Of a stretch of DNA of 44,565 nt, positions 12,574-25,524 are shown piece by piece (position 1 is the stretch's first letter; each line of letters opens with the position of its first letter). The notes beneath the pieces were generated by a model. The model did no database searches. It saw only the letters and a program-made list of their open reading frames with translations, and was not told where the DNA came from. Source of the DNA: Fibrobacterota bacterium (GTDB lineage: Bacteria > Fibrobacterota > Fibrobacteria > UBA11236); assembly GCA_023249635.1 (NCBI GenBank), contig JAHFCH010000026.1, forward strand, positions 1 to 44,565, given 5' to 3'. Position numbers and translations under genes: made by a program.

Positions 12574-14304
12574 TTAGTTGAGTACGGTCACGCGGCCCAA
12601 CGCCTCGACGGCGCGGCCCGCGTTGTCGGCCTTGATGCGGAGGAAATGCACGCCGCGGGAAATGCCGGTTACCGGCATGACCAGGCTACGGGCGCCGCCC
12701 TGCACGTCGAAAGGCATGCGCGCGGCCACTTGACCGCGGGAGTCGAGCAGCTCCACCGAGCCGATGGTACGGCCGGCCGGGAAGGCGTAGGCTACCTGCA
12801 ACCCGCGTGCGTCGGCAAAGGCGGTGAGGCCGCGGCTGCGGGACTTCGCGCGGGCCTGGATGCCCACCTTGCTGGTGTCGACGGCGGCCATGCCGACGAT
12901 CTTCACGTTGTCCACGTAGAACGCGCCGGTCTTCTTGGGCGAGCCCTGGAACTTCCATTGGATTTGCTCGAGGGATTTGATGTGCAGGGTCTTGTCGGCG
13001 AGGAGCTTGACCTCGTCGTAATCCGGCAATTGCAGGGAGGCCCAGGGAACCGTGGCGCTCTTCCATTCGCCCTTGGTCGAAGGCAGCAAGGTGAAGTGCA
13101 CGATGCCGGCGCCCAGGTTGCGCTCATCCTTGACCTCGAGGGTCAGGTAATCGATATCGGTGCCTGTGGTCTTGTAGTCGAAGGAGAGCCCGGTCGATCC
13201 GGTGGCGTTGAGGTGGGATACGTTAAGTTCATCGGAAAGGCGCGTGCCGACGCCGACGAAAGGCCGGATGGTGTTGGTCCCCTGCAGCCATGAGGGCCCG
13301 AGGGTGAATTCGATTCCGGCCGCGTCGCCGCCGCCAACGCCCTTGAGACCGGCGATGGTGATGTCCGGCTTGGTGGGCAGGAGGGGATTCGGGGTTACGC
13401 CCCCGAAAATCTCGGAGTAATCGGCTTGCGATGCCACGGTGCGGCCATCGGCGTCATTGTAGGCGTACCAGTAGAAGCCCGCCTTGTTCTGGTGCTTGGG
13501 GACGGTCTCGAAATCGGAGAGCAGGCCGCCGGTGCCGGCGCCTACCAGGCCCACGCAGCTCATGCAAGCGTAGGGGTTGGGCCACACGTAGCTCTTTACC
13601 ATGACACTGTCGATGAGGATGATGCCCTTGAGGGGATTGGTGGCCGCATCCATGGAGATCTTCCAGGAGATCTTCTCGCATTCCTTGGGATTGAAAGGCA
13701 CCGCGGGCTTTGCCCAACTCGGCTGCTTCAGGGCATCCTTGAGGGCGGTCTCGGAGAGAGCCACCTCATATGTCTTCCACGAGGTGCCGATGTTGTGGGT
13801 CACTTCATGCACGGCGAACTGCTGATCGCCGGTTTGGGTGGTGACGCTGGTGATGGCCACCTGGACCACGGCCACGGTAGGCGCGGCGGCCTTGGCCTTA
13901 TAGGTGATCTTGGTGGCCCCGGTCATGTCGAGCGCCTTCTTGGAAGGCGTGAAGTCGGTGCCGAACCCGATGAACTGGCCGAAAGTGCAGGTGCCGCCGC
14001 AGGAAAGCGGGGTCGGTCCCATTTCGTAATCGATTTTGGCGGCCTTACCGCCGCTCTCGTCCACGCCGATGGAGACCGAGGGATCAAAAAGCAGTTCCAC
14101 GCCGGTGCCGGGTTTCGAGCTGTTCACCTTGGAAGTGCCCTGGTTGGCCGCGTCGTTGTAGTAGTACCAGTAGGACATGAACTTGTTCTGGTTGCTGCCG
14201 CCTTCGAAATCATCCATCAAGGCGTCCTGCGCGCGCGCAGCGCCGGCGGACATGGACACCGCGGCGGCGCCCAACAACCATGCTCTCAACTTGCGTGATC
14301 CCAT
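12574..14304 (-). CDS. Secreted protein with two CBM11-like modules and a type-A-like C-terminal sorting domain
   Basis: The start at 14304 gives a signal peptide (MGSRKLRAWLLGAAAVSMSA, cleavage near AARAQ) and is preceded by GGGGAAAAGAAA; an upstream start at 14370 would bury the signal. Two related beta-sandwich modules follow: residues about 25-250 starting LMDDFEGGSNQNKFMSYWYY, and about 260-485 starting LLSDFETVPKHQNKAGFYWY. Both share the F-E-x(n)-W-Y-x-Y-N-D-A signature and an Asp-rich end (FYVDNVKI). The C-terminal ~80 residues (GSVELLDSRGQVAARMPF ... GVHFLRI) resemble type-A sorting domains. No catalytic domain is visible, so this is probably a cell-surface or released carbohydrate-binding protein. 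It precedes the GH9 gene by 172 bases and is divergent from GH8 across a 172-base spacer in which no convincing promoter could be assigned. Confidence 0.75.
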   Translation of the reverse strand: MGSRKLRAWLLGAAAVSMSAGAARAQDALMDDFEGGSNQNKFMSYWYYYNDAANQGTSKVNSSKPGTGVELLFDPSVSIGVDESGGKAAKIDYEMGPTPLSCGGTCTFGQFIGFGTDFTPSKKALDMTGATKITYKAKAAAPTVAVVQVAITSVTTQTGDQQFAVHEVTHNIGTSWKTYEVALSETALKDALKQPSWAKPAVPFNPKECEKISWKISMDAATNPLKGIILIDSVMVKSYVWPNPYACMSCVGLVGAGTGGLLSDFETVPKHQNKAGFYWYAYNDADGRTVASQADYSEIFGGVTPNPLLPTKPDITIAGLKGVGGGDAAGIEFTLGPSWLQGTNTIRPFVGVGTRLSDELNVSHLNATGSTGLSFDYKTTGTDIDYLTLEVKDERNLGAGIVHFTLLPSTKGEWKSATVPWASLQLPDYDEVKLLADKTLHIKSLEQIQWKFQGSPKKTGAFYVDNVKIVGMAAVDTSKVGIQARAKSRSRGLTAFADARGLQVAYAFPAGRTIGSVELLDSRGQVAARMPFDVQGGARSLVMPVTGISRGVHFLRIKADNAGRAVEALGRVTVLN

Positions 14305-14476
14305 TTTCTTTTCCCCGTTTGAAGTGACGGCCCGCCTGCCGCCTGCCGCGGCGGGAGCCCTGGTTCCCATCGCTTAGTGCCGGATCCGGTCGGAGCGGTT
14401 CACCGTACCGTACCTGAACCGGGCCGCCGCCGTTGCCTACCAAGATGAGGGGTAAAAAAAGGAAACCGGTGCGGAT

Positions 14477-15976: not shown

Positions 15977-18900
15977 ATGTTGAATAGAATCGCAGCGGCC
16001 ATTTTGGGCCTGGCATTGGGTTGCGCGCAGGCCGCGACCTTCACGGTTTCCAAGGACGGCCGCGGAGCCTTCACCACCATCCAGGCCGCCGTGGATCGCG
16101 CCGGCAAGGGCGATATCGTGGAGGTCCTCGATCAGGCCGTCTATGCCGAACAGGTGACCATCGACAGCACCCATAGCGGTATGACCCTGCGCGCGAGCAA
16201 TCCCTCCGCCGTCAAGAAGCCCACCATCACCAACAAGGATGTGGTCCATCAGAATCCCAAGTCCTGCCAGGACGCGTTGAGCGCGGGGAAGATCGATTTC
16301 GATCAGAACGGCGCCTTGCGCATCTTGGGTGCGCATAACGTAATCGTCGACGGCCTGGGCGTGGACGCCGTGGGCGCAGCCCCCTTTTCCTGGCCCAATA
16401 TCTGGGGCGATGGCATCAGTTGCAACGGCCGCCTCTATCCCCTCTTCCACGGCAATGCCGGTATCGTCATCTACCTCTCCGGTACGGTGACCGTACGCAA
16501 TTGCGATATCGCCAACGCTTTCTTCGGTATCTCGGTGAAGGATCGCAACCAGGGCGGCGTGTTCGCCAATTTCAACCCCGCCGATCTGGAGAAGTTCAAC
16601 ATCGTTCCGCTTTCCGGGTTCGGGCGCACCGGCAACCACATGTTCGAGAAGAACCGCATCCATCATAACGTGTGGGCTTTCTTCTTCGAATCCGCCTGGG
16701 ACCTGGGATCCACGGCGCGCTACAACCTGGTTTACGAGAACCATCATGCCAGCGCCGCGGCCGCCGCGGCCGTAAAGGCCTTGGGAGACGGCGAGCATCA
16801 GCCCGGCGGGGGCTTTCTGTTCAAGGACGTGATGCTGACTCCCCTGGCCATCTACAACAATACCTTCTGGCACAACTTCACCAACTTCGCCGGCGGTTAC
16901 CGGCCCGGCGCCCAGCATCTGGTCTTCAACAATATCTTCGCCACCCCCAACGAGTACTACTCCCAAAGCGCCAGCTTCCCCAATCCCTTCCACATCCTGG
17001 ATCCCTTCTTCCAGTTCCGCATGCATAACTGCCTCTACGCGGCCCAGACCGAGCCGCCCAAGCTGGACAGCCAGAAAGTACAGGCCCAGAAATACGATGA
17101 TGGCACCAAGCAACAGGTGGTCAAGGATACCACCGTAAAGTTCTACCGCTCGGTGCGCATCATGAACGCAATGGGCACCGTGGTGCAGGAGAATTTCACC
17201 GTCGACATCGTCCTGCCCATGTCCACCGGGCCTTTGCCCATGCCGCAGACGATCAACGGCGCCAACCTTCCCGGCGGCCTCATCGGCGGGGCCGGGACCG
17301 ATCCCTTCTCCGCCGCGGCCAACGTGCGTTGGTACGAGATCAAATTCAAGTCCGTCGATCCCGCCAGCCCGGACTTCCTATCCCCCGACTGGGACGATCC
17401 GGTGGTGAAGAAGTACGTCATGAACGCGGGCTGGCCGGAGGCCGGGATATTCAACTCCGACGGCAAGGTCGCCGACCTGGGCGCGGTGCCTTCGGTGGCG
17501 CGCCATACGGCCGACGTAATCATCCGACCCCTGGGGCCGGCCATCATCAACGGCGCGTCCGCCACCTTGACGTTCGACATGCAGTCCATAGCCGGGGACC
17601 TCTCCGGGGCCAAGGTCAAATACATCCGCCTAGTCCACGCCATCCCCGTCCTGCTGGATGGCTTCGGAGGCACCAAAGCCCTGGTAGTGCCCGATCCCGC
17701 CACGGTCACCGTGGCCAACGGCAACGTAAAGATGGGCGCCAATACCCTGACCGTCACGGGTTTCCCCGCTTTGGGCGCCACTGAAAGTTTCGCCTTCTTC
17801 GAAATCGTAGTGGAAGGCATCGCGCCCAACGGCATGCCCGCCACCACCAATGTGGGTTTCATCCCCTACCGCAAACTGGACTACAAGTTCCTGGTCGAGG
17901 TGTTGGATGCCGCCGGCGCCAAGACCGCCTCGGTAAAGGTGGGCGAAACCGTACGCCTGCGCATCACCCCGCAGAAGTTGGACGGGACGCCTTTCAACAA
18001 CGCCATCGCGCCTGTGGAAGTGAACCTCAATTCCGGCGTCGACCTGTTCGCTCCCGGGACGCCTCCCGCCAAATTCGTGTTGGGCAAGGTGGAGGGCATC
18101 ACCACCTCCCCGGTCATGTTCACCAAGGTTCCGGGCGGGGGTATCGAGTACGTTACCGTATCCGGCATTTGGAAGAACGGTATCAATACCCTGGCCTTCT
18201 ACGGGGTTTCGGACGGCATCCGCATCCTGCCGGGTGATCCGGAGAAGGTGGTTTTCCAGGATCCGCCCTCCAAAATCCTGAATCCCGGCTCGGCACCCGT
18301 CATCGATCCCGGCGTGCTCTATCCCGTGAAAGTGGAAGTGCGGGATCGCTTCGACAATGCCATTTCCACCCCGGTGGCGGTCACCTTCAAGAGCAACCAG
18401 CCGGCCATCGGAGACATCGACGGAATCGCAACGGCCAACACCGATTCCTTGGGCATCGCGACGGTGCGGGCCAAGGTCACCAACGGGGACCTGAATCAGT
18501 TGTTCGAATTGGAAGCGACCATCGCGGGCAAAACGCCGGACAAGGCGGACCTGAAGGTGGGCAAGGCACGGGATAAGCTCTGGATATTGTATGCGGATAC
18601 CAAGGGCTATGATGCGGCGGCGGAATTGCGGGGAACGGCGGGCCAACGCCTGGCGGTTACCATCCGCGCCGGCCAGGACGCCAATGTTGCCCTTACCACG
18701 CGACTGACAGAATTCAAGCTGACCGCGACCTTGGGCTTGGCGGTATATGCCGGCCCCACGGATACGGCGCCCAGCTCGGTTTTCACCCTCAAGAACGGGG
18801 AGGTCGTTGTCTACGTGTCCGGTTTGCGGGCCGTCGAGAACGGATTCCTCTACGCCGACCCGACTACGGACAACACCATCTTGCCCGGCTCGCGGGCGAA

Positions 18901-20137
18901 GATCTATTTTTCCTTCACTCCCGGCGCTGTACTCGCGGCATCTTTCCACTCCGATAACGGCTTAGCCGCGGTGGATCGCGTGGAGATCGAATTCCGCGCC
19001 GACCTCAAGCGGGGACCCGATTCCATCGCCCTGGCCTGGCCTTCCGCAGGCGCGAATCCCAAGCTTATCAAAGCGGGAATCGTGCTGGATCCTGCGCGAC
19101 CCCGCCATCTCACCCTCAAGCTGGCCGAACCCTTCCCTGCCGGTCTATCCGCCGGCATCGGTGCCGGGACCGCCTTCCTGTTCGATCCCGCCACCCCGGA
19201 CATCCCGGTGCAGGCCGCCGTTTTCACGGGCGCCGATTCGGTGGGGCCCCTGCTCGACAGCGCGGTGGTACTGGAGAAGGAAGGTAACGGGGGCGATACC
19301 CTGTGGATAGGGACCAACGAGAAGATCAATCCTGCGGGACTGCCCGGACCTTCCCTGATCCTGATCAAGGCGGGCGGGACGGCGATAACCCTGTCGGTTC
19401 TCGGCGCGGTGGAAATTCCGGGCAAAGGGTGGCGCATCGCCATAGCCGACCTGGGACCCCAGGCCCCTGCGGCCGGCGATTCCCTGCGCATCAACGGCGC
19501 AGGTCCGCTGCTGGACCTCCCGGGCAATCATGCCCATGCCCTTAACCGGCCCGTGGTACTGCGTCTCAGGTTCAAGCCCAAGGCACCGGTGCTCAATCTG
19601 ACCATGGACCGGCCGTTCCTGGGCGTCAGGAATTCCGCACAGGAGCCGGGCTTCCTGATCCTCTCCGGCAATCCCGATTCCTCCTGGACGCCGGTGGCGG
19701 GCAGCACACCCGCCGGCCTCACCGCCGATTGCCATAGCGTGCGTTGCGGAGACGTCGTCCGGGGCGGTCCCGACGGGTCCATCGATCGCCCGGCCTTCAC
19801 GGTGGAAACCGATCGTGGCATCAAGTACAGCCTGATGCTGTTCTCCACCCTGGGGGAATTCCTGGACGGCTTCACGGGGGAGATCACCAACGCGCAATTG
19901 GGATTGGACTCCCGTAACCTTCCGGTTACCGGGGCGACCCCCTTGTTCCCGCGCAATGGCAAGGGCCGCTATTCCATCAAGATCAGCTGGAACGGCAAAT
20001 CCCATGACGGGAACCTGGCGGGAACGGGAGCCTATATCGCCAAGATCACGGCGGTAAGCCAAGCCGAGGACGCTGACGGAAAAGCCTTCCGCCTGGCCCA
20101 ATCCCGCGCCATCCGTTTCGGTCTGTTGAGGAATTGA
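15977..20137 (+). CDS. Large secreted beta-helix protein (pectin-lyase-like fold) with Ig-like and FlgD-like domains
   Basis: 1386 residues with signal peptide ending CAQAA. The mature start, TFTVSKDGRGAFTTIQAAVD, is the classical opening of right-handed beta-helix enzymes such as pectin methylesterases. The following ~350 residues show helix rungs (VTVRNCDIANAFFGISVKD, HLVFNNIFA). Catalytic residues of CE8 or PL families could not be confirmed, so the exact enzyme class is open. The middle carries Ig/invasin-like modules (for example VKVEVRDRFDNAISTPVAVT near residue 780). The C-terminus is a FlgD-like domain (ISWNGKSHDGNLAGTGAYIA) ending RFGLLRN, matching the GH9 at 3670. It probably acts on, or binds, plant polysaccharide outside the cell. 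Its stop lies 12 bases from that of the convergent lipoprotein. Confidence 0.7.
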   Translation: MLNRIAAAILGLALGCAQAATFTVSKDGRGAFTTIQAAVDRAGKGDIVEVLDQAVYAEQVTIDSTHSGMTLRASNPSAVKKPTITNKDVVHQNPKSCQDALSAGKIDFDQNGALRILGAHNVIVDGLGVDAVGAAPFSWPNIWGDGISCNGRLYPLFHGNAGIVIYLSGTVTVRNCDIANAFFGISVKDRNQGGVFANFNPADLEKFNIVPLSGFGRTGNHMFEKNRIHHNVWAFFFESAWDLGSTARYNLVYENHHASAAAAAAVKALGDGEHQPGGGFLFKDVMLTPLAIYNNTFWHNFTNFAGGYRPGAQHLVFNNIFATPNEYYSQSASFPNPFHILDPFFQFRMHNCLYAAQTEPPKLDSQKVQAQKYDDGTKQQVVKDTTVKFYRSVRIMNAMGTVVQENFTVDIVLPMSTGPLPMPQTINGANLPGGLIGGAGTDPFSAAANVRWYEIKFKSVDPASPDFLSPDWDDPVVKKYVMNAGWPEAGIFNSDGKVADLGAVPSVARHTADVIIRPLGPAIINGASATLTFDMQSIAGDLSGAKVKYIRLVHAIPVLLDGFGGTKALVVPDPATVTVANGNVKMGANTLTVTGFPALGATESFAFFEIVVEGIAPNGMPATTNVGFIPYRKLDYKFLVEVLDAAGAKTASVKVGETVRLRITPQKLDGTPFNNAIAPVEVNLNSGVDLFAPGTPPAKFVLGKVEGITTSPVMFTKVPGGGIEYVTVSGIWKNGINTLAFYGVSDGIRILPGDPEKVVFQDPPSKILNPGSAPVIDPGVLYPVKVEVRDRFDNAISTPVAVTFKSNQPAIGDIDGIATANTDSLGIATVRAKVTNGDLNQLFELEATIAGKTPDKADLKVGKARDKLWILYADTKGYDAAAELRGTAGQRLAVTIRAGQDANVALTTRLTEFKLTATLGLAVYAGPTDTAPSSVFTLKNGEVVVYVSGLRAVENGFLYADPTTDNTILPGSRAKIYFSFTPGAVLAASFHSDNGLAAVDRVEIEFRADLKRGPDSIALAWPSAGANPKLIKAGIVLDPARPRHLTLKLAEPFPAGLSAGIGAGTAFLFDPATPDIPVQAAVFTGADSVGPLLDSAVVLEKEGNGGDTLWIGTNEKINPAGLPGPSLILIKAGGTAITLSVLGAVEIPGKGWRIAIADLGPQAPAAGDSLRINGAGPLLDLPGNHAHALNRPVVLRLRFKPKAPVLNLTMDRPFLGVRNSAQEPGFLILSGNPDSSWTPVAGSTPAGLTADCHSVRCGDVVRGGPDGSIDRPAFTVETDRGIKYSLMLFSTLGEFLDGFTGEITNAQLGLDSRNLPVTGATPLFPRNGKGRYSIKISWNGKSHDGNLAGTGAYIAKITAVSQAEDADGKAFRLAQSRAIRFGLLRN

Positions 20138-20149
20138 GGCGGCCGGCCG

Positions 20150-21769
20150 TCAGGGACGGTAGCCGATGATGACGGGCAGGGGTTGCTTTTCGTATCCGGC
20201 CAGTAAGCTGGCGGGATTCAGGCCGTAGTCGAAGCGGGAGGCATCGTTGAAGACGGGATCCACATCCAAGGCGGCGTTCTTGAGGGCTTCGGCGCGGGTC
20301 GAATCCAAAGCCTGCAGACCCCAATTGATGCGGACCGTGCCGGTCAGGTTGTTGTTCCAGACATCGCTTTCCTTCACTTGGAACAAATCCTGGAAGCCAT
20401 TCTCCGCCTCTCGGAAAATCCCGATGCCGCCGTTGGAAGCCACGATGGTATTGGCGATGGTCAGGGCCCGGCGTGGCGAATTGACGCGTATCCCCTCTCC
20501 GTCATTATCGGCGATGGTCGTGTTCAGGATCTCTCCCCAGGGCGTGACGCACTCCAAGCCATGGCCCTTATTGCCCGCCACCAGGACGTTATAGAGATGG
20601 ACCCGGTAATCCATTTGCTCCTGACCCTGGAGGCGCGCCCCCTTGCCGTTGGCGAGCAGACGGCAATCAAGCAAATCCACATCACTGTCGATTACTTCCA
20701 GGCCGAACTGGGCGCTGCTGTCGAAGACGCAGCGGCGGAAGGCGATGTTGCGGCAACCGTTCTCGAGCTTGACCCCGCTGATGGCGCCGCCCCGGAATTC
20801 GAGATCCTCGAACCGGATATACGAGCGCCCGCTCAGGATCAGAGTGCTGTTGGAAGGCTTACCCGTGTTCTTGTCGATGGCAGGCACGAAGAGCGTACGC
20901 AGACCGGGATAACCGCGAACGACGATGGGGCTGTCCGGGGTTCCGGAATTGGTGAAGCGAAGGTCGACGGGGTACCTCCCGGCGCCGATCAGGAGGCTGT
21001 CCCCGGCCTTGGCCACGAAGGTGATGCCCTGCAGGGAATCGGGCTTGGTGATGATGTGCTGGTTTTGGGTGCGTTTCACGAAGTCGACGGAATCATTGTA
21101 AAGCTGGACAACGGCGTTGTCAGCCACGCGCAATGCATCGTAGGCGCGCACGGCCTTGTTGCTATCGGCCACGGCCGCATTTCCGCTGTCGATGCGTATC
21201 TGCAGTCGGAAGCATGCCAGGGTGTCCAGGGCGAAAGGCCGCAGGACCGAATCGGCATAGGCCGAGGGATAGGGAACCGTAGGCGTATGCTCGGCATTGG
21301 CATCCGCCATGAAACGCGCAAGATTGGCCGTCCGCACCTGGACGGAAGTGCGGACCGATTGGAACCCGGCGTAGGGGCCATAGGCCCTGAGCGTATCCAA
21401 CAGGGCCAAGGCTTCCTTATGCCGCAACGAATCGGGAACCGCCTTGGCGTTGGCGGTTTCCACCCCGGCATTGGCCGACCTGATCGCGGTATTGCGCCCT
21501 CTCAGCGCCGCGTTGGCCTTGACCCGCTCGGCGTTGGCGGACGAATCGGCCGCGAAGGAACCGGAGAAGCCGGATACCTGCGCGGCATAGGCGGCCTCCC
21601 CCGCCGTCAACGAATCCAGGCGCGCCTGTTTCTCCGCCCGGATATTCGCGCCGGCCTGCCCTCCCGCGTTAAGGGGATCGAATGGGTTGGAGCGATCGAT
21701 GCAGGAGGCGAGCAGGCTGGCCGCGACCAGACAGGTGAGGCTTAAATGGGGTATGCCGATGCGGAACAT
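20150..21769 (-). CDS. Lipoprotein with Ala-rich helical stalk and parallel beta-helix domain
   Basis: The start at 21769 gives a lipoprotein signal with lipobox LLASC (C23), followed by IDRSNPFDPLN, a sequence style common after the lipidated Cys in Fibrobacterota-like lipoproteins. Residues about 30-215 are rich in Ala, Asn, Asp and Ser with helix-favouring spacing (RLDSLTAGEAAYAAQVSG), suggesting a stalk. Residues about 240-500 are a right-handed beta-helix (FVAKAGDSLLIGAGRYPVDL, FEDLEFRGGAISGVKLENG, NIAFRRCVFDSSAQFGLEV, ANTIVASNGGIGI). No catalytic residues are evident, so polysaccharide binding or lyase activity is only a possibility. It is divergent from the PEGA protein with 73 bases between starts. 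Confidence 0.7.
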   Translation of the reverse strand: MFRIGIPHLSLTCLVAASLLASCIDRSNPFDPLNAGGQAGANIRAEKQARLDSLTAGEAAYAAQVSGFSGSFAADSSANAERVKANAALRGRNTAIRSANAGVETANAKAVPDSLRHKEALALLDTLRAYGPYAGFQSVRTSVQVRTANLARFMADANAEHTPTVPYPSAYADSVLRPFALDTLACFRLQIRIDSGNAAVADSNKAVRAYDALRVADNAVVQLYNDSVDFVKRTQNQHIITKPDSLQGITFVAKAGDSLLIGAGRYPVDLRFTNSGTPDSPIVVRGYPGLRTLFVPAIDKNTGKPSNSTLILSGRSYIRFEDLEFRGGAISGVKLENGCRNIAFRRCVFDSSAQFGLEVIDSDVDLLDCRLLANGKGARLQGQEQMDYRVHLYNVLVAGNKGHGLECVTPWGEILNTTIADNDGEGIRVNSPRRALTIANTIVASNGGIGIFREAENGFQDLFQVKESDVWNNNLTGTVRINWGLQALDSTRAEALKNAALDVDPVFNDASRFDYGLNPASLLAGYEKQPLPVIIGYRP

Positions 21770-21842
21770 GGGTATAATAATGTAATCCCTTCCCATTCCG
21801 GGCAGGTCAGGTATATTCTTGCCTACAATACGGAGGATGTCG

Positions 21843-22766
21843 ATGTTTTCCCGCCGGTTGCGCGCCTCGTTTAACGCCTTCGCCATCGCGGCTTTCCTGG
21901 CCATATCTGGCTTGGCTATAGGCGCCGAACCCTGCCGGCCAGGCAACCAGACCTTGTTCTTCGCGCCCCATCCCCTGCTGGAAGCCCGTATGCCCGCGGG
22001 GTTTTCCGACAGCCTGCTGGCGCAATTGCGGGACCCGGCGCGTGAGCTGGGGTATTGCGTGGAATCCGTAACCGACCCGCGGACCCTGCTGGACACCGCG
22101 AAATACGGCGACATGCTTTACCTGCAACCATCGGTCCGGGACGAAGGCGCGGGAGCGGCCTCCCTGATCGTGGCGACCCTGCGCGTCCGCGAATTGGCGC
22201 GCGGCAAGCTGGCCGAAGCGGTTTCGCGGCCGCTGGTCTCCCTGCGTTTCTCCCCCGCCGAAGCCTCCAGCCTGGCCAATGTGCTCGGCAAGAAGATCGC
22301 CGAGAACCTCCGCAGCCAATACGTCGCCGATCTGCTGCTCCGTTCCCATCCCGCCGGGGCCACGGTGCGCACCGCCTCGGGCCTGGAAGGCTCGACACCG
22401 GTGGAATGGGTGATGCCCATGGGTAGCTTCGAGGTTACCCTGGCGAAGCCCGGCTATCTGGATATCGTGCGCCAGGTCGAGCTCAATTCGCCCGGCCAGC
22501 ACACCTACGAGCTCCAGCTCGTTAAGCGACGCTTCTACCATTCCCGTTTCATCTATCCCGCCCTGGGCGCGGGCGTGATTTCCCTCGCCGCCTTCGCCCT
22601 GGAAAACCATTATTACTCCGCGTACCAGGGCCTGGGAGCCGCTGACGGCAAGGCGCACCCGGAAAAATTCGGGGACGAATTCCACGCCGCGAAAAACTAT
22701 GAGCGGCTTGGTTTCACCGCGCTGGGAATGGCCTGGCTTAACCTGGCGCTATGCTTCACCTTCTGA
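21843..22766 (+). CDS. Exported PEGA-domain protein with C-terminal membrane helices
   Basis: The start is 21843 because GGAGG (21832-21836) sits 6 bases upstream; an ATG at 21837 touches the GGAGG. Residues 1-28 form a signal peptide ending near GLAIGAE. Residues about 30-160 match no family I recognise. Residues 165-228 form a PEGA domain (SHPAGATVRTASG ... TLAKPGYLDIVRQVELN), a small surface beta domain often tied to cell-envelope proteins. Two hydrophobic segments follow, at about 237-253 and 290-306. Length is 307 residues. It precedes the ECF sigma factor by 140 bases and shares the PEGA type with the FecR protein, suggesting a common envelope process. Confidence 0.65.
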   Translation: MFSRRLRASFNAFAIAAFLAISGLAIGAEPCRPGNQTLFFAPHPLLEARMPAGFSDSLLAQLRDPARELGYCVESVTDPRTLLDTAKYGDMLYLQPSVRDEGAGAASLIVATLRVRELARGKLAEAVSRPLVSLRFSPAEASSLANVLGKKIAENLRSQYVADLLLRSHPAGATVRTASGLEGSTPVEWVMPMGSFEVTLAKPGYLDIVRQVELNSPGQHTYELQLVKRRFYHSRFIYPALGAGVISLAAFALENHYYSAYQGLGAADGKAHPEKFGDEFHAAKNYERLGFTALGMAWLNLALCFTF

Positions 22767-22906
22767 AGCGTTAGGGAAACTTGGGGATGCGCATGGCGCA
22801 AAAACAGGAAATCGGGCAATATACCGTCGCCGCGGAATCTTCGCTGGGGAATAATGAACCTTCTTCCCGGGCCTTACACTAATAGGGAAAGGGGGGATGT
22901 AAACGG

Positions 22907-23470
22907 ATGAGCAACCTGACGGAACCCAGTAAGGAACTCTTAAGCGAATGCAAGGCCGGCAACCCGGTCGCGTTCAAGGAAGTGTTCCACATGTACCGCG
23001 GCTACGCGTACAATCTCGTCTATAAGATCACCGGCCCGGAAGGCGAACACGAGGATTTGGTACAGGAAGCCTTCTTCCAAATGTACCTGTCCCTCAAGTC
23101 CTTCCAGGGGAACTCGTCCTTCAAGACCTGGTTCCACCGCATCATCATCAATACCTGCACGGCGCGTTGGCGCTTCCAGGAGGCCGGCAAACGGATCTCC
23201 GCCAAGAAGACCACCAGCCTCGAGAACATGGATTACGAGTTGCCCAGCCGGGATGAAGGCATCCACAAGGAACTGGAGCTGAAGAACCTGGTGGAACTCG
23301 CCCTCGCCCATTTGGACGAGAAGTTGCGCGTCCCGCTGGTGCTGAACATCTACAGCGATATGGATCTTTCCGAAATCGCCGTGGCCCTGGACATCCCCGA
23401 GGGAACGGTCAAATCGCGGCTCTTCACCGCCCGTCAGAAAATCAAGGAATACCTGGATACCCTGGAATAA
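22907..23470 (+). CDS. ECF-type RNA polymerase sigma factor
   Basis: 187 residues with the two-domain ECF layout. Sigma region 2 is at about 22-95 (FKEVFHMYRGYAYNLVYKIT, EDLVQEAFFQMYLSLKSF, TWFHRIIINTC), and sigma region 4 at about 125-182 contains the helix-turn-helix MDLSEIAVALDIPEGTVKSR. It directs RNA polymerase to specific promoters. A purine-rich AAAGGGGGG precedes the start by about 10 bases. Its stop is 5 bases before the FecR/PEGA/TPR protein, so translation is probably coupled and that membrane protein is the likely partner anti-sigma. Target promoters are unknown; the adjacent surface-protein genes are candidates. Confidence 0.92.
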   Translation: MSNLTEPSKELLSECKAGNPVAFKEVFHMYRGYAYNLVYKITGPEGEHEDLVQEAFFQMYLSLKSFQGNSSFKTWFHRIIINTCTARWRFQEAGKRISAKKTTSLENMDYELPSRDEGIHKELELKNLVELALAHLDEKLRVPLVLNIYSDMDLSEIAVALDIPEGTVKSRLFTARQKIKEYLDTLE

Positions 23471-23475
23471 TCTCT

Positions 23476-25524
23476 ATGAACGCCCCCAACCCCAAGCCCG
23501 CCCGCGATCCCGAGGATCGTATGCGCCTCTTCGAGAGCCTGCTCAAGCAGGACGTGGAAGCCCGGACCGCGGATGGCCGCGCTATCGACTTCGCGAAGAT
23601 GGAAAAGGCCTTGTTGGAACGCATCCAGAAGGCGGAAGCTTTGGGACCCTTGGCGGCGCTCAAAGCCGAGGTGACGCCCCCTGCCGGTTTCTTCGACAAG
23701 ATGGAAGGGGATCTGCTCGCGCGCATCCAGAACCATCGCGAATACGAACAGCCCGTCAACGACGTAATCGCCGGAGCGGTCAAGCCTTCCGGCATGGAAT
23801 TGCACCGCATCGAGAGCAAGCTGGATGATCGCATCGGGCACGCGGCGCAGCTCGCGCCTTGGGAAGCCTATCTCAAGTCGGAAGTCTCCTTGCCCATGGG
23901 CCGTTGGGAAGCCGTAGAGGAAAAACTCTTCTCCCGCATCGAGAAGCATCGCAAGATAGGCCTGGTCGCCCCCGCTTCCACCTGGCTTACCTTGGGATTC
24001 TTCCGCAATCCCGTCTTCCAAGGCGTCGCCGGCTTCGGCGCGGCCTGCCTAATTGCCGTCGCGGTCCTGTTCTTCCGCGAAAGCCCCGCTCCCGCCTTGG
24101 AAACCCTGGTATACCAGGCCCAGGGTACCGCCGCCCATGATTTGGATTCGGCCTTCAGCGGCCGTCCCGATCTGCGCGGCCATGCCGATATCCGCTCCCA
24201 GGACGATGGCGCCATGATCCTGGTCAACCAGCGCGGCTTCGTGGAAATGCATAACGGCTCACGCCTGCAAATCGAAGAAGCCGATCGTAAGAAGGTGCGC
24301 TATCGCGTGGCCTTCGCCGGGCACGGGCATACCGCGCGCGGCAACGTGACCTTCTTCGTGAACAAGCGCAAAGGCCAGGAGAAATACCAGGTGGCCACGC
24401 CGGATTACCGCATCGACGTGGTCGGCACCTACTTCCGCGTGCGTCCCGACCTGGGCGGCCGCGTCGCCACCTCGGTGCTGGAAGGCAAAGTCAAAATCCA
24501 TTCCGAAGCCTACGGTGATTTCGAAGTCGCCGCGGGCCAGAGCCTGGTCTATGACGCCGTCTACGAACGCTACCGCGTCCAGGACGGGGGCGCCAGCATC
24601 CGCCGTGAGGATATCGAAACCATCCCCGCCGTGGACGAGCTGAGCCATTACGGCGTGGTGACGGTGACCTCGGATGAACCCGGGGCCGAAGTGCGCATCG
24701 ACGACCGTTACAAGGGCGCTACCCCGCTGGTGGTGTTGCTGCCCCCGGGCCGGCATTCGCTCCAACTGAGTAAAGAAGGCCACGGCCGCCTGGATACTTC
24801 GGTGACGGTGGCCGGGAACGGTTCCCATCGCCTGGCCCTGGCCCTGCCGGATGCTCCCGCGCCCATCCGCGCGGCCAAAGCGGAAAAGGCCAAGCCCGGC
24901 AAGGTCAATGCGACTCCGAAGGCCGCCGCCGTTCCGGCGCAACTCTCGCGGTCCGAAGAAGCCGACCTTATTTACCGCAAAGCCGATGAGGCCCAGGCCA
25001 AGGATTGGCAGATCGCTGTGCAATTGTACCAGCGCGTGCTCGAGAATCCCGCCTCGCCCCCCTTACGCAAAGAAGCCGCCTTCTTCTCCGTCGCGCGCCT
25101 GCGCGCCGAGCATGAGCGGGAAAAGACCGGTGCCAAAGAGGATTTCCTCCGCTACCTGGCGCTCTATCCCGACGGCGCTTTCGCCGGGGAATCGTGGCTG
25201 CGCCTGGCCGAATTGGAAGTCGGCCGCAACCAGGACAAAGCCATCGAATACTACCTGCGCAGCATGGAGAAGATGCCCCATCATCCGCGCCTGTCCGAGA
25301 TGCAGCATCGAGTGGGACTGCTCTATCTACAGAACAAGCGCTATGACGAGGCGGTGGCCATGTTCCGCCAAAGCCTGGGGAACATCCTCTACGCCAACGA
25401 AACCGAGAAGCGCAAAATCTACCAGAGCCTATACCGGGCCCTCGTCGCCAAAGGCGACCTCAAGGCCGCCGAACAGATCGGCAAGGAATACCGGCCCCCG
25501 GACGACAGCATGGGCGGCAAATAG
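23476..25524 (+). CDS. Putative transmembrane anti-sigma regulator: four ~35-residue cytosolic repeats, TM, FecR, PEGA and TPR domains
   Basis: 682 residues. The cytosolic part contains four imperfect repeats with motif E-x-x-L(L)-x-R-I at residues 43-50, 77-84, 113-120 and 148-155 (spacing 34-36). It has no zinc-binding HxxxCxxC of ZAS anti-sigmas. A transmembrane helix spans about 177-200 (VFQGVAGFGAACLIAVAVLF). A FecR-type beta domain follows at about 230-375 (DVVGTYFRVRPDLGGRVATS), then a PEGA domain at about 393-455 (TSDEPGAEVRIDDRYKGATP), an Ala/Lys/Pro linker and TPR-like helices at about 490-675. FecR proteins transmit envelope signals to partner sigma factors. The gene starts 5 bases after the ECF sigma stop. 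I infer that the repeats hold the sigma factor and the periplasmic PEGA/TPR part senses or docks to an envelope complex. Confidence 0.75.
   Translation: MNAPNPKPARDPEDRMRLFESLLKQDVEARTADGRAIDFAKMEKALLERIQKAEALGPLAALKAEVTPPAGFFDKMEGDLLARIQNHREYEQPVNDVIAGAVKPSGMELHRIESKLDDRIGHAAQLAPWEAYLKSEVSLPMGRWEAVEEKLFSRIEKHRKIGLVAPASTWLTLGFFRNPVFQGVAGFGAACLIAVAVLFFRESPAPALETLVYQAQGTAAHDLDSAFSGRPDLRGHADIRSQDDGAMILVNQRGFVEMHNGSRLQIEEADRKKVRYRVAFAGHGHTARGNVTFFVNKRKGQEKYQVATPDYRIDVVGTYFRVRPDLGGRVATSVLEGKVKIHSEAYGDFEVAAGQSLVYDAVYERYRVQDGGASIRREDIETIPAVDELSHYGVVTVTSDEPGAEVRIDDRYKGATPLVVLLPPGRHSLQLSKEGHGRLDTSVTVAGNGSHRLALALPDAPAPIRAAKAEKAKPGKVNATPKAAAVPAQLSRSEEADLIYRKADEAQAKDWQIAVQLYQRVLENPASPPLRKEAAFFSVARLRAEHEREKTGAKEDFLRYLALYPDGAFAGESWLRLAELEVGRNQDKAIEYYLRSMEKMPHHPRLSEMQHRVGLLYLQNKRYDEAVAMFRQSLGNILYANETEKRKIYQSLYRALVAKGDLKAAEQIGKEYRPPDDSMGGK

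Follow-up and report, generated by a model that had tools for sequence, protein, structure and literature searches.

A putative membrane anti-sigma factor of the Fibrobacterota carries, ahead of its single transmembrane (TM) helix, four tandem units with an apparent origin in the arm that helix 4 forms in class I anti-sigma domains (ASDs). The interpretation that we favor, and regard as fairly likely, is that these amplified helix-4 units wrap one ECF sigma factor, which a signal at the cell envelope would then free for the expression of cellulose genes. The protein and its partner are encoded in a stretch of 44,565 nucleotides from a Fibrobacterota bacterium, referred to hereafter as the window, with the following features:

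22907..23470, plus strand: ECF sigma factor, 187 aa, Sigma70_r2 and Sigma70_r4_2, the cognate partner
23476..25524, plus strand: complete protein of 682 aa, a putative membrane anti-sigma factor whose units are in tandem
23533..23634, plus strand: repeat unit 1, residues 20-53, repeat HMM 20.1 bits
23635..23739, plus strand: repeat unit 2, residues 54-88, repeat HMM 32.2 bits
23743..23847, plus strand: repeat unit 3, residues 90-124, repeat HMM 27.5 bits
23848..23952, plus strand: repeat unit 4, residues 125-159, repeat HMM 48.8 bits
24019..24075, plus strand: TM helix, residues about 182-200, a hydrophobic stretch found by reading the sequence
24241..24495, plus strand: FecR domain, residues 256-340, predicted periplasmic, Pfam PF04773, 31.2 bits
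24652..24849, plus strand: PEGA domain, residues 393-458, Pfam PF08308, 53.4 bits
25192..25377, plus strand: TPR repeats, residues 573-634, Pfam TPR_12, 32.1 bits

The open reading frame, its coordinates and the order of units, TM helix, FecR, PEGA and TPR domains had been given in a preliminary description of this DNA and are correct by Pfam, and the TM helix is followed by a FecR domain in all 17 family members scanned. Cysteine is absent from residues 1-166 of the window protein, which bears out the earlier statement that no zinc site is present, and the listed matches of the 17 members and of the window protein include neither zf-HC2 nor any other ASD model. In addition, the N-terminal region has no sequence match in Pfam, NCBIfam or the PDB.

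The repetition itself is well marked. When residues 1-166 were compared with themselves, the best 30-residue ungapped score was 63 at an offset of 71, which equals two units, a score that none of 300 residue shuffles reached (mean 18, 99th percentile 35). Moreover, a repeat HMM trained on other families, with the window's genus left out, recovered four copies in the window protein, at residues 37-54, 57-87, 93-123 and 126-158 (11.3, 18.8, 8.6 and 44.3 bits); among 1000 shuffles the best single domain scored 7.6 bits, and in none did two domains exceed 5 bits. The four repeats proposed ahead of the TM helix are thus real. Each unit is about 35 aa long with the core (W/F)-x-x-(I/V/M)-E-x-x-L-x-x-R-I, and the cores begin at residues 42, 76, 112 and 147; the positions first reported (43, 77, 113 and 148) differ from these by no more than one residue. 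Unit 4 is nearest to the consensus, with W129, E148 and L151 invariant, and unit 3 is characterized by a conserved EYExPVN(D/E) in its first helix, in which P93 is invariant.

The sigma factor of the window fits ECF models best, and the anti-sigma reading frame starts 5 bp past its stop codon. Among 18 aligned pairs the gap between the two genes ranges from -4 to +25 bp, with overlaps of 1-4 bp in several relatives, and the translational coupling suggested earlier is therefore plausible. When the phylum was searched, 19 of 168 Fibrobacterota genomes proved to encode the N-terminal region, none of the 19 in more than one protein. The sigma gene lies directly upstream in 18/18 aligned pairs and in a nineteenth pair, that of G031, while sigma orthologues above 300 bits occur in exactly the 19 genomes with a repeat protein, the next ECF matches reaching 243 and 155 bits. 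G159, a 98% complete genome of the window's genus, has neither gene. Because of the upstream sigma gene in 19/19 pairs, the identical distribution across 168 genomes and the overlapping genes, the window protein very likely regulates the adjacent ECF sigma, as had been claimed. The family would be phylum-specific as far as the search of the 168 Fibrobacterota genomes reached; the relatives named are MAGs of Fibrobacteria, Chitinivibrionales and Chitinispirillaceae, from a scan that used patterns of the TPR part and not the repeat alone. One further candidate, G041 (E 4.8e-4), was rejected as a member, its locus holding no matching protein. Separately, a second sigma paralogue of 243 bits was observed at L121 (G020:C220); a repeat-type anti-sigma was not found directly downstream of it.

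The origin of the unit was traced through proteins encoded behind more distant ECF sigmas of the phylum. These are membrane proteins with short cytosolic parts, some of which contain a zinc ASD and, after it, a segment like PVPEKDDSYWQNMNLRICSEI, and others that segment alone, for example VPAKTDNEWQRLENDLFVRLD in L127; in L126 and L204, zf-HC2 scores above its cut-off. Further anti-sigma candidates encoded beside sigma genes in the phylum have one unit, next to the membrane. With intermediates chosen for their placement behind such sigmas, and comparison groups composed after the sequences had been seen, the unit profile matched the single-unit FecR anti-sigma candidates with a probability of 87, an E of 3.9e-6 and a score of 24.2 (column-shuffle maximum 9.5, 0/60), as well as the short single-unit candidates with an E of 3e-5 and a score of 19.6 (column-shuffle maximum 12.2, 0/60). 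The single-unit FecR group in turn matched the zinc ASDs (probability 94.7, E 5.7e-8, score 43; shuffle maximum 13.5, 0/50), the alignment falling on the segment after HxxxCxxC. A direct comparison of the unit with the zinc ASDs gave a weak match (score 12.3 versus a shuffle maximum of 9.8, E 0.019), and that with the non-zinc ASDI group did not rise above column shuffles (1/60).

The ASDI profile of the phylum matches the solved DdvA, RslA, RsrA and RsiW, and in RsiW the match spans helix 4, around EAPADFTANVMAKL. Helix 4 of class I ASDs is a sigma2-binding helix, as is the last helix of CnrY (PMC7406223). The alpha3'-L4'-alpha4' segment of RsiW sits in the groove of SigW, and CnrY is the counterpart of RsiW alpha3' and alpha4' alone (PMC5358783). 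By way of the single-unit candidates, these profile relationships suggest that the repeat descends from the arm containing helix 4 in class I ASDs. The preliminary description had placed the repeats outside any known ASD; several copies do stand where one known ASD would be expected, but the unit appears to be related to the class I helix-4 arm through the single-unit intermediates and then the zinc ASDs. A census of FecR proteins was left out, as most of those sampled start with a membrane or signal segment and are not sigma regulators.

Two further observations concern the small and the composite forms. At L207 (G000:C10:33000-37500, minus strand), which represents the short single-unit type within the window's own genome, and at L192, L193, L206 and L208, an ECF sigma gene is followed by one for a membrane protein of about 120 aa, whose cytosolic part of roughly 40 residues comprises little beyond one minimal unit, for example FREAERLQPSPALWRRIAAAS; such proteins are possibly the smallest anti-sigma factors of the single-unit kind. 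In the zinc-ASD protein L204 (G167:C73), two successive helix-4-like stretches can be seen by eye past the zinc site, LNDKEWDDLIQEAVKH and FSDAEWHELIETAWEKH, and the protein is perhaps an intermediate of unit amplification.

In AlphaFold models, most units consist of a short helix and then a long helix. The repeat region alone was predicted with a pTM of 0.35, its helices confident and their arrangement not, and the model had no fold match in the PDB. Sigma and repeats were modelled as one chain from L043, where the genes are in frame across a TAG and the read-through is contiguous; the matches of this model in the PDB are to the sigma half. For the complex predicted in this way, sigma2 is confident, but the relative placement of sigma and repeats is not (pTM 0.29) and no interface is supported. 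The low-confidence arrangement fits an extended arm that would become ordered on its partner.

On the favored interpretation, a single-pass membrane anti-sigma factor would control the product of the ECF sigma gene immediately upstream of its own. The cytosolic part is predicted to repeat a plan of short helix, often proline-bearing linker and long amphipathic helix, four times in the window protein. The ancestor of each unit would be the end-of-helix-3, linker and helix-4 element of class I ASDs, which shields sigma region 2 on the face that binds RNA polymerase and also follows the sigma2-sigma4 groove in RsiW and CnrY. The zinc bundle of helices 1-3 would have been lost and the leftover element amplified to 3-6 copies, and the position-specific units would most likely wrap one sigma and bar it from RNA polymerase. 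The FecR-PEGA-TPR region would act as the envelope sensor. A site-2 protease gene is present, which makes release of the sigma by regulated proteolysis possible, and such a route is probable; the freed sigma would then drive its own operon together with genes for cellulose breakdown and sugar uptake.

How many sigma molecules one protein might hold is addressed by the variation among relatives. Four units are found in the window's genus and in families f11 and f12, three in G155 and family f9, and six in family f7; in G155, about one unit is missing where units 1 and 2 meet, and hence not every unit is essential. It could be supposed that each unit docks one sigma, so that a protein stores 3-6 of them and sets a threshold or a burst of release. 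Such a store would agree with copy numbers that shift by whole units, and with the resemblance of the unit to a sigma2-binding element that is found alone in other anti-sigma candidates. However, units at the same position share 34% identity across families, as against 19-20% between units at different positions, whether in one protein or two, and the positions are thus old and specialised, unlike interchangeable docking sites, which favors the wrapping of one sigma. Moreover, the ASDs in the literature searched touch sigma4 too, which a lone unit might not. Storage of several sigmas is accordingly held to be unlikely, albeit the best placed of the alternatives to wrapping.

A less probable proposal, to which we would give little credence, starts from the FecR domain of the window protein and from the fact that the two genes are never apart in the phylum: the cytosolic part would bind the sigma and be needed for its activity, and the protein would be mainly an activator or chaperone of the pro-sigma type. 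In E. coli, sigma activity depends on the first 59 residues of FecR (PMC7406223), and Leptospira LIC12756 stabilises its sigma (PMC13118517). No FecR_N (DUF4880) match was obtained in the window protein or in any of the 17 members, though, and the units resemble the inhibitory helix 4 instead. Slightly more improbable still is that the repeats form a helical scaffold of a general kind, either a coiled-coil linker or a TPR-like alpha-solenoid, which binds no sigma and is adjacent to it merely through a shared operon. Two-helix units of 35 residues are sized like solenoid repeats, and the modest pLDDT and lack of a fold match would suit such a scaffold; by contrast, TPR models match residues about 573-668 of the window protein and none of the N-terminal units, the pairing with the sigma is strict, and single-unit versions occur beside other ECF sigmas, just before the membrane helix. 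The wrapping of one sigma by amplified helix-4 units remains our preferred reading. A wider formulation, in which a sigma2-gripping arm free of the zinc bundle was amplified to 3-6 units whose adjustable array either retains several sigmas or binds one with a strength that can be graded, and in which the protein serves throughout the Fibrobacterota as a master switch for cellulose degradation, is doubtful, at perhaps one chance among four.

The genes that the sigma may control were predicted from a promoter motif with the consensus GAACY-N15-17-CACTAA. It lies 50-80 bp before the sigma start codon, is exact in 10 of 18 loci, and is replaced by CTACTAA-like variants, seen by eye, in several Chitinispirillaceae-type loci. 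By chance, 0.01 matches per window would be expected. The relevant features of the window are:

22855..22882, plus strand: TGAACCTTCTTCCCGGGCCTTACACTAA, a putative ECF promoter for autoregulation, some 24 bp ahead of the sigma start codon
14374..14402, minus strand: second copy of the motif, directly before the CBM11 gene, the sole other match in the window
12574..14370, minus strand: CBM_11 protein, predicted regulon gene, Pfam PF03425
9837..12560, minus strand: glycosyl hydrolase family 9, predicted regulon gene behind CBM_11, PF00759, 244 bits
14477..15892, plus strand: glycosyl hydrolase family 8, divergent from the CBM11/GH9 pair, Pfam PF01270

The GH8 gene is preceded by only a degenerate motif in the window and by an exact one in its relatives in G156, G157 and G158, and likely belongs to the sigma regulon. 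The window's own genome has just two more matches, arranged divergently, one of them in front of a GH1 gene and the other in front of the gene of a MalK-type ABC ATPase. In the genus, the motif precedes GH5, GH8, GH9, GH1, CBM11-like, beta-helix and ABC genes; of the 36 matches there, about ten lie before other genes or within genes. Matches concentrate on the contig of the sigma (8/11 in G157, 6/6 in G158, 5/11 in G155 and 2/4 in the own genome), where a reversed control pattern placed 0/42 of its matches (G000, G156, G157 and G158). The raw count of motif matches is not above that control (4 vs 13 in the own genome), and the evidence for a regulon is therefore the placement of the motif, not its number. 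Families f9, f11 and f12 also have the motif before the sigma gene and before GH5, GH8, GH9, CBM11-like or SBP_bac_5 genes, and, in the loci that were read, before the gene just past the anti-sigma. Judged by motif placement, the sigma/anti-sigma pair is probably a cellulose-regulon switch, and a cellulose-degradation regulon is predicted to be conserved across four or more families of the phylum. In addition, a 1386-aa beta-helix-type protein is encoded in the window at 15977-20137 (plus strand); its relatives in G155 and G157 have the motif directly upstream, and it may be in the regulon.

Between these genes and the sigma lie two others:

20150-21766, minus strand: lipoprotein with a beta-helix domain
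21819..22766, plus strand: PEGA-domain gene, conserved as the immediate upstream neighbour of the sigma gene in 9 loci from 4 families

They are divergently transcribed, are kept around the sigma in about nine loci, and possibly take part in sensing.

In the literature searched, no regulator of cellulase genes is described for the Fibrobacterota. The conserved promoter predicts, in several families, one sigma regulon with uptake genes and genes of GH5, GH8, GH9 and GH1, and this prediction is directly testable. In function as predicted, and by that analogy only, a counterpart is SigI/RsgI of Clostridium thermocellum, which likewise combines a membrane anti-sigma factor with a polysaccharide-breakdown regulon; however, the window sigma is an ECF sigma and not a sigma-I, the window protein has FecR, PEGA and TPR domains rather than carbohydrate-binding modules, and no RsgI-type model matched the window anti-sigma in Pfam or NCBIfam scans. 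FecR-type regulators, such as E. coli FecR and Leptospira LIC12756, share the cytosolic N-terminus, single TM helix, periplasmic FecR domain and adjoining ECF sigma, but the window protein differs in having PEGA and TPR domains and a much longer, repetitive cytosolic part in place of FecR_N, and in that the predicted targets of its sigma are cellulases, not iron transport.

With the class I ASDs (RsiW, RslA, RsrA, ChrR and RseA), the window family has in common the ECF-sigma operon and the placement before a TM helix; its match to the sigma2-binding linker-helix 4 part runs through the intermediates and is weak in direct comparison. It differs from them in having no helix 1-3 bundle or zinc site and in presenting the helix-4 element 3-6 times. 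The class II ASD CnrY, compared by its description (PMC5358783), has no zinc bundle and resembles the single-unit candidates in plan, but contains one element, whereas the window family has a tandem array. Tandem, variable-number putative sigma-binding units were not found described in the open-licence literature searched, which agrees with the preliminary view that this layout is not known from the described anti-sigma classes. The ingredients, namely the helix-4 element, FecR and an ECF sigma, are ordinary, and it is their layout that would be new to that literature. The anti-sigma domains described in that literature have one sigma-binding module each, and the unit number that varies among the relatives of the window protein, together with its single-unit and zinc-type kin, offers a natural series for the evolution of anti-sigma strength and stoichiometry.
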